In this document: positions 39,396 through 41,717 of the stretch, one piece after another
Layout of the letters: each line of letters opens with the position of its first letter
Numbering within the stretch: position 1 is the first letter of the stretch
From: Streptomyces djakartensis
Lineage (GTDB): Bacteria > Actinomycetota > Actinomycetes > Streptomycetales > Streptomycetaceae
Assembly: GCF_014651075.1 (NCBI RefSeq)
Contig: NZ_BMWE01000004.1
Location: forward strand, 62,001 to 126,000
Reading direction: 5' to 3'
Length of the DNA: 64,000 bases
Program-made: the position numbers and the translations under genes
Notes under the pieces: generated by a model
Seen by the model: the letters and a program-made list of their open reading frames with translations, nothing else
Database searches by the model: none
What the model was told of the DNA's origin: nothing

Positions 39396-39470
39396 CCGTT
39401 GCGGGTTCCCGGGCCGGGACGATAGGGGGTTTACCCCCTGCCCCGTTCGCCCTCCAGGGGCGCTGTCGTC

Positions 39471-39607
39471 GGGCCGCCCGCTTCCTTGCCAGTGTCGTGA
39501 TTCCGTGGGCCGAGTAAAGGGCGCTGCGCGTCGGCTTCGCCGATCGGCCTCCGGCCGACCCTTGACTCGGCCCACGGAATCACGGGAGAGAAGCGAGCGG
39601 GCGGCCC
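39471..39607 (+). repeat. 137-nt cruciform-forming element, copy A
   Basis: Nested pairing: an outer stem GGGCCGCCCGCT (39471-39482) with AGCGGGCGGCCC (39596-39607), and a central perfect 19-bp stem GTGATTCCGTGGGCCGAGT (39497-39515) with 39565-39583. Two inner hairpins follow: TCGGC-TTC-GCCGA (39531-39543) and TCGGCC-TCC-GGCCGA (39544-39558). The same layout recurs inverted at 40041-40177 with compensatory changes. It is noncoding apart from a short tail frame ARFLASVVIPWAE. Confidence 0.85.
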
Positions 39608-39723
39608 GGAAAGGCGGGTGGCCAAGGACTGATCGCGGACCTCGGCCCGTCGTGTCGCCGACCGGCGTGGACGGGCGCGGCCGCGCCTCGCATGCACGCC
39701 GGCCGGTCTCGGCGGCTGACGGC
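39608..39723 (+). repeat. Flanking arm of the inverted duplication, copy A side
   Basis: This stretch (for example GCCGACCGGCGTGG, GGCCGGTCTCGGCGGCTGAC) is a diverged inverted copy of about 39930-40040. The duplicated unit is therefore about 250 bases on each side, including the 137-nt element. Confidence 0.65.
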
Positions 39724-39929
39724 CTGTTCCGGGTGGGGCGGGTGCGATGTGGGGCGGAGTGGGGTGTGAGTGGAGCGTTTGGGTCAGGAATGGCCCATGG
39801 ATAGCGGGTTGGAGTGGCCCGATCGCTCCACTCGCGGGCTCATCGGGCGCTGCGGAGAATTTGTATGCCGTCCGCGCTCGTGCTCGTACTCGTTGCGGCA
39901 TTGTGCCAGCGGACCACCACGTGCCGACG
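39724..39929. other. Central spacer of the inverted duplication
   Basis: About 200 bases between the two arms, with no convincing gene. It contains its own inverted repeat, GAGTGGAGCG (39768-39777) and CGCTCCACTC (39824-39833), 46 bases apart, and a slightly lower G+C patch near 39860. No transposase or recombinase frame is seen. Confidence 0.5.
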
Positions 39930-40040
39930 GTCAGCCGCTGAGACCACCCGGCGTGCCGCCGAGGCGCGGGTGCGCCCGCCGATGCCGGTCAGCCACGCAG
40001 GCGACCCAAGCGTCGCCCGGCCTGGGACCCCGCTTTCCCC
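39930..40040 (-). repeat. Flanking arm of the inverted duplication, copy B side
   Basis: The reverse complement (GGTGGTCTCAGCGGCTGACC, GCTGACCGGCATCGGCGGGC) matches the arm at 39608-39723 with scattered substitutions and small gaps. Confidence 0.65.
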
Positions 40041-40177
40041 GGGCCGCTCGCTCGCTTCTCTCCCGTGCCGGAGCGAGCCGAGTCAAGGGTGGCCCGCAGG
40101 GCCATCGCCGAAGGCGACGCGCAGCGCCCTTTACTCGGGTCGTGGAGGCACGACACTGGCAAGGAAGCGGGCGGCCC
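40041..40177 (-). repeat. 137-nt cruciform-forming element, copy B
   Basis: An inverted copy of the element at 39471, exactly the same length. Outer stem: GGGCCGCTCGCT (40041-40052) with AGCGGGCGGCCC (40166-40177). Inner hairpins on the plus strand: TGGCCC-GCA-GGGCCA (40090-40104) and TCGCC-GAA-GGCGA (40105-40117). Both inner stems differ from copy A by paired changes that keep base pairing. Its end supplies the last codons and stop of the DUF397 gene. Confidence 0.85.
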
Positions 40178-40370
40178 CGACCGTACCTATGAACGCCCTC
40201 CAGGCGTCCGGCCCGACCAGGAGTACGGGTCCGCCGTCGGGTGTCAGCTTGCTGTCCCGGACGGGGACCAACCCGGGGGTTCCGTCGGCGACTTCGACGC
40301 AGTTGCCGCCGTCGCCGTTGCTGTGACTGCTCTTTCGCCAGTGGGCGTTGCTCAGGTCGTACTCGCGCAT
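40131..40370 (-). CDS. DUF397 domain protein
   Basis: A 79-aa protein with the DUF397 pattern: WRKSSHSNGDGGNCVEVAD, then VPVRDSKLTPDGGPVLLV and DAWRAFIGTV. Such proteins are partners of XRE/DUF5753 regulators in streptomycetes, as with Scr1/Scr2 or WhiJ-like loci. Its start lies within the 3' end of the regulator gene (19-base overlap). The normal C-terminus is followed by AARFLASVVPPRPE, which is encoded by repeat element B, so the repeat has replaced the original stop region. Whether this affects function is unknown. Confidence 0.88.
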   Translation of the reverse strand: MREYDLSNAHWRKSSHSNGDGGNCVEVADGTPGLVPVRDSKLTPDGGPVLLVGPDAWRAFIGTVGAARFLASVVPPRPE

Positions 40371-41182
40371 CGTCTGAAGTCCTCAGCCGCCGATCGGACC
40401 AGGGCGAGGGACGCCTCCGGCGACAGTGCGGCGCCCCTGAGCAGATCGTAGGCGCGCTCCGCACGCTTCACCATGGCCGGATCATCGACCAACGTCCCTG
40501 AGAACGACGTCTCTGTATAGGCGACCGGCGGCGCGTCCTGGAACTCCATGAGCCGTAGCGAGCCGTTGTTGGCAGGGGCCCCGGCGGAGAACGGAAGCAC
40601 CTGCAACACCACCTTGCGCGCGTCCGCGAGGTCGGCCATGTGGTCGAGAGCCCGGGCCGTGACAGCCGGCCCACCCACCGGTACGCGCAGTACGGTCTCG
40701 TGGACAACGACCCAATACACCAGCCCTGTAGCGCCACCGAGGATCTGGGCGCGTTCCACGCGGGCGGCGACTCTCTCCTCGACGAACTCGTCCGTCGCGA
40801 ATGGATGCGTCGCCAGAGTGAGAGCTCTCGTGTACGCCGGTGTTTGGAGGAGCCCTGGCACCACGGTCGGTTCGAACTCGCAGATCGCCGTAGCCTGCCC
40901 CTCCAGCTCCACAACCCCCGCGAAATACTCCGCATACCGGTTGTCGTCAATCAGCTTCCTGCACAACCGCTCGAAAATACCGCCGGTTTGCAGCACGCCG
41001 TCGATCCGCTGGGCCACATCCAACTGTGGTTTGCGAATGGCCTGTTCGAACTGGCCGATGTAGCCGCCGGAGACGAATACCCGGGAGCCCAGCTCCACCT
41101 GGGTGAGGCCGGTGTCCTCCCTCTGCCGTTTCAGCTCCGTTCCGAAGAACTCCCACGCCGCCTGCCGAGAACCGTTGGCCAT
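40352..41182 (-). CDS. XRE-family regulator with DUF5753 domain
   Basis: A 276-aa regulator. The N-terminal helix-turn-helix (about residues 12-65) contains LKRQREDTGLTQVELGSRV and FVSGGYIGQFEQAIRKP. The DUF5753 part contains EFEPTVVPGLLQTPAYTRAL, VYWVVVHETVLRVPVGG, VLPFSAGAPANNGSLRLMEF and YTETSFSGTLVDDP. It pairs with the downstream DUF397 gene, with which it overlaps. In Streptomyces such pairs influence antibiotic production and development. ATG 41182 is the start that fits the domain; the longer frame is spurious. Confidence 0.92.
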   Translation of the reverse strand: MANGSRQAAWEFFGTELKRQREDTGLTQVELGSRVFVSGGYIGQFEQAIRKPQLDVAQRIDGVLQTGGIFERLCRKLIDDNRYAEYFAGVVELEGQATAICEFEPTVVPGLLQTPAYTRALTLATHPFATDEFVEERVAARVERAQILGGATGLVYWVVVHETVLRVPVGGPAVTARALDHMADLADARKVVLQVLPFSAGAPANNGSLRLMEFQDAPPVAYTETSFSGTLVDDPAMVKRAERAYDLLRGAALSPEASLALVRSAAEDFRRCASTT

Positions 41183-41298
41183 TACCGGACCCCTCTGCGC
41201 TGCCCCGTAGTTGTAGGGCTCCGCCCCCTCCCGAGTGTAGGCGCGGAGCGTCATCGTGGAGACACGAAGAGTAAAACCGGAAGGGGAAGGGGAGCACG

Positions 41299-41505
41299 GT
41301 GGAGGCACGACACTCGGCGCTCTGCGCCGAAGAAGCGGAGGACGTGGTGAAAGAATTGCGGGCCGAACTCGCCAAGGCCGGAGTTGTCCTGCCCTCATTG
41401 GGACTCGACCCGGTAAGTCTTGCGCGGGAAGCGCCCTGCCCGCTCGTGGAATTGGGCCGGTGTTCCGTGGAGACCGCCCGGCGCCTCGCGGCGGCTCTGC
41501 GATGA
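41299..41505 (+). CDS. Small protein of a WhiJ/AbaA-type locus, function unknown
   Basis: A 68-aa protein starting with GTG behind GGGGAAGGGGAG. It is largely helical (EEAEDVVKELRAELAKAGVVLPSLGLDP) with a second helix CSVETARRLAAALR. It is divergent from the XRE regulator and overlaps the next small gene by four bases. Similar short proteins commonly sit beside XRE/DUF397 pairs in streptomycetes. No known fold is recognised. Confidence 0.72.
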   Translation: MEARHSALCAEEAEDVVKELRAELAKAGVVLPSLGLDPVSLAREAPCPLVELGRCSVETARRLAAALR

Positions 41506-41717
41506 GGCTCCCGCTCGGTGCGTACGTCGTGGACATGAGCAGTGGACGCGTCGGGATCGTCATGGGGCATGAGGGGCCCTATGTGCAGTTGAGGCCGCAC
41601 GGGGGTGGCAGGGAGTGGGACGTCGACCCCGGTGCCGTCCGGTACGCCACCCCGGCCGAGCGGCTGCGCGCGGCGACCGCGTATGCCAACGCACGCAGCA
41701 GGGGCGAGGTCCCCTGA
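41502..41717 (+). CDS. Small conserved streptomycete protein, function unknown
   Basis: A 71-aa protein beginning LPLGAYVVDMSSGRVGIVMG, then PYVQLRPHGGGREWDVDPGAVR and a helix PAERLRAATAYANAR. The beta-rich N-terminus resembles a small barrel. Its ATG overlaps the stop of the preceding 68-aa gene (ATGA), so the two are translated together. It probably belongs to the same regulatory locus as the XRE/DUF397 pair. recO follows 26 bases later but is a separate function. Confidence 0.75.
   Translation: MRLPLGAYVVDMSSGRVGIVMGHEGPYVQLRPHGGGREWDVDPGAVRYATPAERLRAATAYANARSRGEVP

Follow-up and report, generated by a model that had tools for sequence, protein, structure and literature searches.

A DNA hairpin resembling single-stranded DNA promoters, paired in Streptomyces chromosomes and carried on actinobacterial plasmids

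Results

An inverted pair of structured arms beside an XRE-DUF397 gene pair

The window, by which we mean the whole 64,000-nucleotide stretch of Streptomyces djakartensis DNA analysed here, contains a noncoding inverted-repeat unit that lies next to a DUF397 gene and an adjoining XRE/DUF5753 regulator gene (Table 1). A first-pass annotation of this DNA had described its outer parts, copies A and B, as two separate elements. Both inverted copies exist as described, and our folds agree that the central stem is perfect in A and irregular in B. However, an inverted-repeat search of the window recovered A and B as one inverted pair (139 nt, 85% complementary) whose pairing extends inward, and the unit recurs as a whole elsewhere. 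A and B are two arms of one palindromic element, not two independent elements.

Each arm measures ~250–280 nt and comprises an outer domain, which is the hairpin reported earlier, and an inner block. The paired substitutions quoted for the small hairpins are real, but the tip of each arm carries three such hairpins rather than two, with loops TGC, TTC and TCC in A and TGC, TTC and TGC in B. Both arms contain the arrangement TTTACT-N16-GACACT.

Two local peculiarities accompany the unit. Immediately beyond each of its ends is a copy of an 11-nt direct repeat, CGCCCTCCAGG (39448-39458 and 40194-40204); no such repeat accompanies the other pairs, and this one may be accidental or left over from the end of the DUF397 gene. 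At 39496-39584, the central stem of arm A is an almost perfect palindrome, in contrast to the imperfect stems of nearly all relatives; parts of the change also occur at two other loci, L050 and L065. This looks like template-switch correction of a quasi-palindrome.

Table 1. Positions of the unit, its parts, its neighbours and its relatives in the same genome
Feature	Position	Strand	Remarks
Whole inverted-repeat unit (arm A, centre, arm B)	39471..40177	none	one of four paired units of its genome
Arm A outer domain	39471..39607	+	long interrupted hairpin, cloverleaf tip
Arm B outer domain	40041..40177	-	A inverted
Arm A inner domain	39654..39736	+	second conserved block; inner inverted pair
Arm B inner domain	39914..39996	-	inner inverted pair
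Centre, without gene	39737..39913	none	longest open frame 59 aa
Arm A cloverleaf tip	39514..39566	+	stem and three TNC-loop hairpins; covariance model R1, 73.7 bits, E 1.1e-18 (arm A is among the sequences used to build R1)
Arm B cloverleaf tip	40082..40134	-	R1, 78.6 bits, E 4e-20
Arm A -35-like TTTACT	39513..39518	-	GNA-loop strand; read from sequence; family consensus TTGAC
Arm A -10-like GACACT	39491..39496	-	16 nt past -35-like hexamer, internal loop; sequence and pairing profile
Arm B -35-like TTTACT	40130..40135	+	read from sequence
Arm B -10-like GACACT	40152..40157	+	16 nt past -35-like hexamer; read from sequence
DUF397 gene	40179..40346	-	flanking, outside unit; 3' end entering arm B; PF04149, 74 bits; C4:102179-102346
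XRE/DUF5753 regulator gene	40352..41563	-	flanking, adjoins DUF397 gene; PF19054, E 7e-51
Other paired unit, same genome	C10:269450-270279
Other paired unit, same genome	C1:661974-662887
Other paired unit, same genome	C4:363120-364023
Solo arm, same genome	C8:180808

Units are dispersed through Streptomyces as inserted DNA

The 7.67-Mb genome from which the window derives holds four paired units, that of the window included, and one solo arm. The three other paired units span 830–914 bp and occupy different sites, and their centres are 81–93% alike, which indicates that whole units have dispersed; the centre of the window unit is not conserved. We sampled 37 genomes of the genus and found strong matches (E < 1e-30) in 10, this one included, and 32 stretches in named Streptomyces contigs match a 21-nt pattern. 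Unit length ranges from 0.7 to 3.9 kb, solo arms are frequent among the copies, and the arms end sharply at GGGCC, accompanied by a weak outer motif, AAGTGACCGT. The first-pass annotation had itself named an absence of further copies, or substitutions that break the stems, as counting against it; copies exist in this and other Streptomyces genomes, and their stems are kept.

Two further subfamilies share this architecture but differ in stem sequence, one found in three sampled genomes (G004, G006 and G015) and the other in G196. The G196 pairs measure ~1–3.9 kb, and some enclose cargo genes (APH, NmrA, GntR, HAD and HTH). Several of these cargo units also encode a small YEYVPHRLLRRRVRDIASG-like protein of ~84–91 aa (L155 3383-3637, L156 1778-2032, L159 4611-4886), for which we found no Pfam match. 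At one G196 locus a unit adds ~2.9 kb between thiG and pknB, whereas relatives 93–96% identical at pknB have only 140–240 bp between the two genes and no insert. The units are therefore inserted DNA, and their insertion is lineage-specific.

Target-site duplications, proposed earlier as something to look for at the flanks, did not appear consistently: among 15 pairs, direct repeats at equal offsets were not enriched, the 11-nt repeat being confined to the copy in the window, and no exact duplication was found at the G196 thiG-pknB insertion. For the unit beside a DUF7848 gene in the genome of the window, orthologous loci mostly lack the unit, but their neighbouring genes differ and yielded no exact junction. 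As had been remarked from the window, no transposase is linked to the units; none lies between arms or among the G196 cargo, and we found no matching autonomous element. Of the earlier suggestion of a REP/MITE-like element, a MITE-like dispersed unit is supported; a REP is not, as the unit is an inverted pair of 0.7–3.9 kb with arms akin to a plasmid hairpin.

Individual copies carry marks of later events. An IS256-type insertion lies within the right arm of one unit (L051 1774-3192); it is the sole transposase seen and a later arrival in that arm, and we rejected an autonomous transposon. One locus has the same DUF7848 gene as L012 with only ~31–38 nt of one arm left (L086 353-390), a partial loss or an incomplete copy. 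The arm cores of the unit at L063 (6179-7202) are 100% identical to each other and at most 97% identical to other arms, which suggests conversion between arms of one unit. At L013 and L014, the arm is flanked by a piece resembling a DUF397 3' end, as though carried along from a parent copy that, like L011, adjoined a DUF397 gene. A phage origin was rejected, as searches for it gave no matches.

Most genes beside the arms are oriented toward them: 29 called cases read inward, and counting DUF397 genes adds at least three more, against ~10 that read away. Ten of 64 arms have a DUF397 gene no more than 500 nt away, compared with 9 of 398 control windows.

The arm fold is under selection as DNA

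Comparison of 24 diverged arm cores defined 41 base pairs, 11 of which have double (both-side) changes. Across these arms 98.1% of cells are paired, a value that falls to 34–47% when partners are slid by 1–3 columns. None of 500 shuffles reached the observed covariation score; of five covariation measures, four exceeded the values of every shuffle, and all five exceeded those of every slid structure. Selection on structure, which the first-pass annotation had deduced from two copies, is thereby borne out.

The annotation had left DNA and RNA as alternatives. About 112 of 120 tip hairpins close with a TNC triloop whose middle base is free (TTC 41, TGC 38, TCC 27, TAC 6), compared with 37 of 617 triloop hairpins (6%) in control sequence. 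On the complementary strand this is a GNA triloop closed by C-G, which makes a very stable single-stranded DNA mini-hairpin. GNA loops also close the palindromes of Streptomyces telomeres (PMC4513846). Moreover, G-U and A-C cells are equally rare (5 versus 7), a parity that RNA would not give; GNA-type loops and this lack of asymmetry together favour DNA over RNA. No Rfam covariance model matched the arms at E values up to 1. With loop type, absent G-U asymmetry and the Rfam result combined, we rejected a structured RNA family, and the stem register excludes RNA UNCG tetraloops. We thus confirm that the structure is under selection, as DNA.

The tip hairpin occurs alone on actinobacterial plasmids

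Searching plasmids with an arm as query identified the linear Streptomyces plasmid NZ_CP109028.1, which has a full arm ~415–435 bp from each terminus. The terminal palindromes of this plasmid (L102, L107) also have TNC/GNA loops, and its termini are possibly an uncommon telomere type. These ends suggested fused telomeres as the source of the units; we rejected this reading because unit centres hold no shared telomere-like palindromes, which leaves telomere fusion only as a possible origin.

A 63-nt tip consensus matches 31 plasmid records, mostly once per plasmid and in noncoding sequence, in many Actinomycetota and a few Alphaproteobacteria. Five MOBP plasmids place the tip 0.2–1.2 kb from mobC, on the side opposite the relaxase gene and always in one polarity, and a MOBF Pseudonocardia plasmid places it ~1.4 kb upstream of mobF. 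Most carriers are large, though plasmids of 1,579 and 3,459 bp have the tip as well. In 10 of 16 plasmids a plus-strand gene starts 120–310 nt downstream in the predicted direction of RNA synthesis; the other six have no such gene. A strict 18-nt pattern had matched no more than 3 of 396 genomes in the phylum, which prompted us to build a covariance model of the tip only; this model detected the hairpin in 60 of 297 genomes of the class and 21 of 114 genera.

The GNA strand is predicted to form a promoter-like fork

Read from tip to base, the GNA strand has TTGAC in the stem followed by nAnnnT at a fixed 16–17 nt. Among 17 plasmid copies, the hexamer 16 nt after TTGACN has A at position 2 in 10, T at position 6 in 11 and both in eight, so that about half of the copies lack nAnnnT at this distance; other spacings give 0–1, and the opposite strand shows no peak. 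An independent set of 19 loci from other genera was found with model R1, which excludes the -10 region and so makes this set a fair test: nAnnnT lies at 17 nt in 17 of the 19, with several loci related to one another and nine different hexamers fitting. The G196 arms depart from the pattern, having AAGGAC at 16 nt.

Folding with DNA parameters predicts that hexamer position 1 is paired in 0.97 of arms, 0.69 of plasmid copies and 0.89 of genomic copies, and position 2 in only 0.16, 0.19 and 0.22, respectively. The duplex edge thus falls between positions 1 and 2 in the predicted folds, with -12 paired and -11 to -7 open. Sigma reads A-11 and T-7 as flipped-out bases in the open strand and -12 as a pair, which would make this geometry an ideal fork substrate. 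Only A at -11 and T at -7 match a -10 element. T seldom occupies position 1, so the same sequence would be weak as a normal duplex promoter. As modelled, the tip hairpin looks like a half-opened promoter, or fork junction, for RNA polymerase on single-stranded DNA.

Discussion

We propose, with a probability of about 0.58, that each arm is a single-stranded DNA promoter or priming site similar to Frpo or sso, present here in a dispersed MITE-like inverted pair. The arm would be a DNA hairpin that works when its own strand becomes single-stranded in the cell. The GNA-loop strand would then fold, holding the -35-like TTGAC in duplex and the -10-like nAnnnT in a pre-opened internal loop with its fork at -12/-11. 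Binding of RNA polymerase holoenzyme to the fork would yield an RNA that extends beyond the hairpin base. On plasmids, such RNA would allow expression of the first genes or serve as a primer for the complementary strand, like Frpo of the F plasmid or a single-strand origin. The Streptomyces unit would be a non-autonomous inverted pair, dispersed by a presumptive moving enzyme, in which either single strand carries one active hairpin near its 3' end; RNA from that arm would read into the unit, making either strand primable.

Plasmid layout bears on this proposal in different ways. The MOBF carrier arrangement resembles F. In MOBP carriers the promoter-competent strand is the transferred strand only if transfer runs toward the relaxase genes, and it may be the wrong strand, which is the chief weakness of the proposal. 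In Streptomyces, conjugation by TraB transfers DNA in double-stranded form (PMC4170104), which counts against a ready source of single strands there. We are more tentative, at somewhat less than even odds, about a wider reading: that a single-stranded DNA promoter class peculiar to Actinomycetota is widespread among them, recognised by a pre-opened fork and GNA mini-hairpins, and that Streptomyces has mobile elements built from inverted pairs of it, sometimes with cargo, which move or copy via a single-stranded intermediate.

Could the arms instead be bidirectional terminators or 3' end stabilisers, lying at the 3' ends of convergent genes and acting as RNA hairpins that end both transcripts, with dispersal incidental? 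The predominant orientation of flanking genes into the arms fits such a role, as does a transcript map of S. clavuligerus, in which bidirectional transcript ends with long stems occur at 10 of 24 XRE-DUF397 pairs (PMC8269248), the gene type that flanks several arms here. We nevertheless consider it unlikely as the primary function. The TNC triloops sit in a register that excludes UNCG tetraloops, G-U asymmetry is absent, and on plasmids the hairpin stands by itself, with a single polarity beside mobilisation genes; nor would a terminator explain why -35 and -10 keep a fixed distance on the strand opposite to that of the transcript. Termination may be a side effect or secondary role, which the S. 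clavuligerus transcript ends also fit.

Slightly less probable still is an initiation site read by a protein other than RNA polymerase, such as a primase (a G4-type ssi) or a Rep-type nuclease (an HUH or telomere-binding protein that reads GNA hairpins), the -35/-10 match then being part of that protein's site. The GNA triloops and T-shaped tip recall the ends of parvoviruses and the 3' ends of Streptomyces telomeres (PMC4513846), arms lie near both ends of a linear Streptomyces plasmid, and the sso of pSN22 is reported to prime without RNA polymerase (PMC4170104). Such a site, however, predicts neither a fixed spacing of 16–17 nt nor opening exactly at -11. An ordinary duplex promoter that happens to include a hairpin, making outward RNA antisense to the flanking gene from double-stranded DNA, would account for spacing that is normal for a sigma-70-type promoter. 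We regard it as very improbable, since position 1 of the hexamer is so seldom T, a long covarying hairpin with GNA loops would be unnecessary, and opening of -11 to -7 requires the folded single strand.

Single-stranded DNA promoters account for the expression of protective genes as conjugative plasmids enter a cell, and they are known mainly from F-like plasmids of Gram-negative bacteria. If our reading is correct, a conserved actinobacterial version would reveal how plasmids become established in mycobacteria, Cutibacterium, Nocardia and Streptomyces, and would provide a sequence handle for finding leading-region genes in those bacteria. The Streptomyces pairs would then represent a type of mobile element with single-stranded DNA promoters as its ends, often located near XRE-DUF397 regulator genes that control antibiotic production.

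The arms share features with several known systems. Like MITEs, the units are dispersed, noncoding and transposase-free with terminal inverted repeats; unlike MITEs, they have very long structured arms, many solo arms and some cargo, and show neither a consistent target-site duplication nor the ends of an autonomous element. Streptomyces telomeres (Tap/Tpg) likewise have packed palindromes with sheared G-A GNA loops on the strand with the outward 3' end (PMC4513846), but the chromosomal copies described here are internal, and the linear-plasmid arms face the opposite way relative to the terminus. The sso/sti sites of rolling-circle plasmids such as pIJ101 are also orientation-dependent hairpins in single-stranded DNA, and the arms would similarly convert it to duplex via host factors. 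The carriers here are, in contrast, mostly large plasmids, and in a homology search of actinobacterial sso limited to pIJ101, the best-studied Streptomyces case, model R1 found no match.

The closest likeness is to Frpo and ssi, the single-stranded DNA promoters of F-like plasmids reportedly described by Masai and Arai in 1997. We know of no sequence relation between them and the arm hairpins. Frpo and ssi are noncoding hairpins in plasmid leading regions that present -35 and -10 elements in folded single-stranded DNA; the plasmid copies here are likewise hairpins close to mobilisation genes, often followed within a short distance by the start of a gene. The arms have the one-strand covarying hairpin, the fixed -35/-10 spacing and, in predicted folds, the open -10 region of this type. 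Unlike Frpo and ssi, they have three GNA-loop mini-hairpins at the tip, occur in Actinomycetota and a few Alphaproteobacteria, and also form chromosomal inverted pairs. A survey of single-stranded DNA promoters, which covers Frpo and ssi, names no actinobacterial case (PMC11541004), and our search found none in the open-access literature. Single-stranded DNA promoters as such are known; the proposed actinobacterial version would be new.
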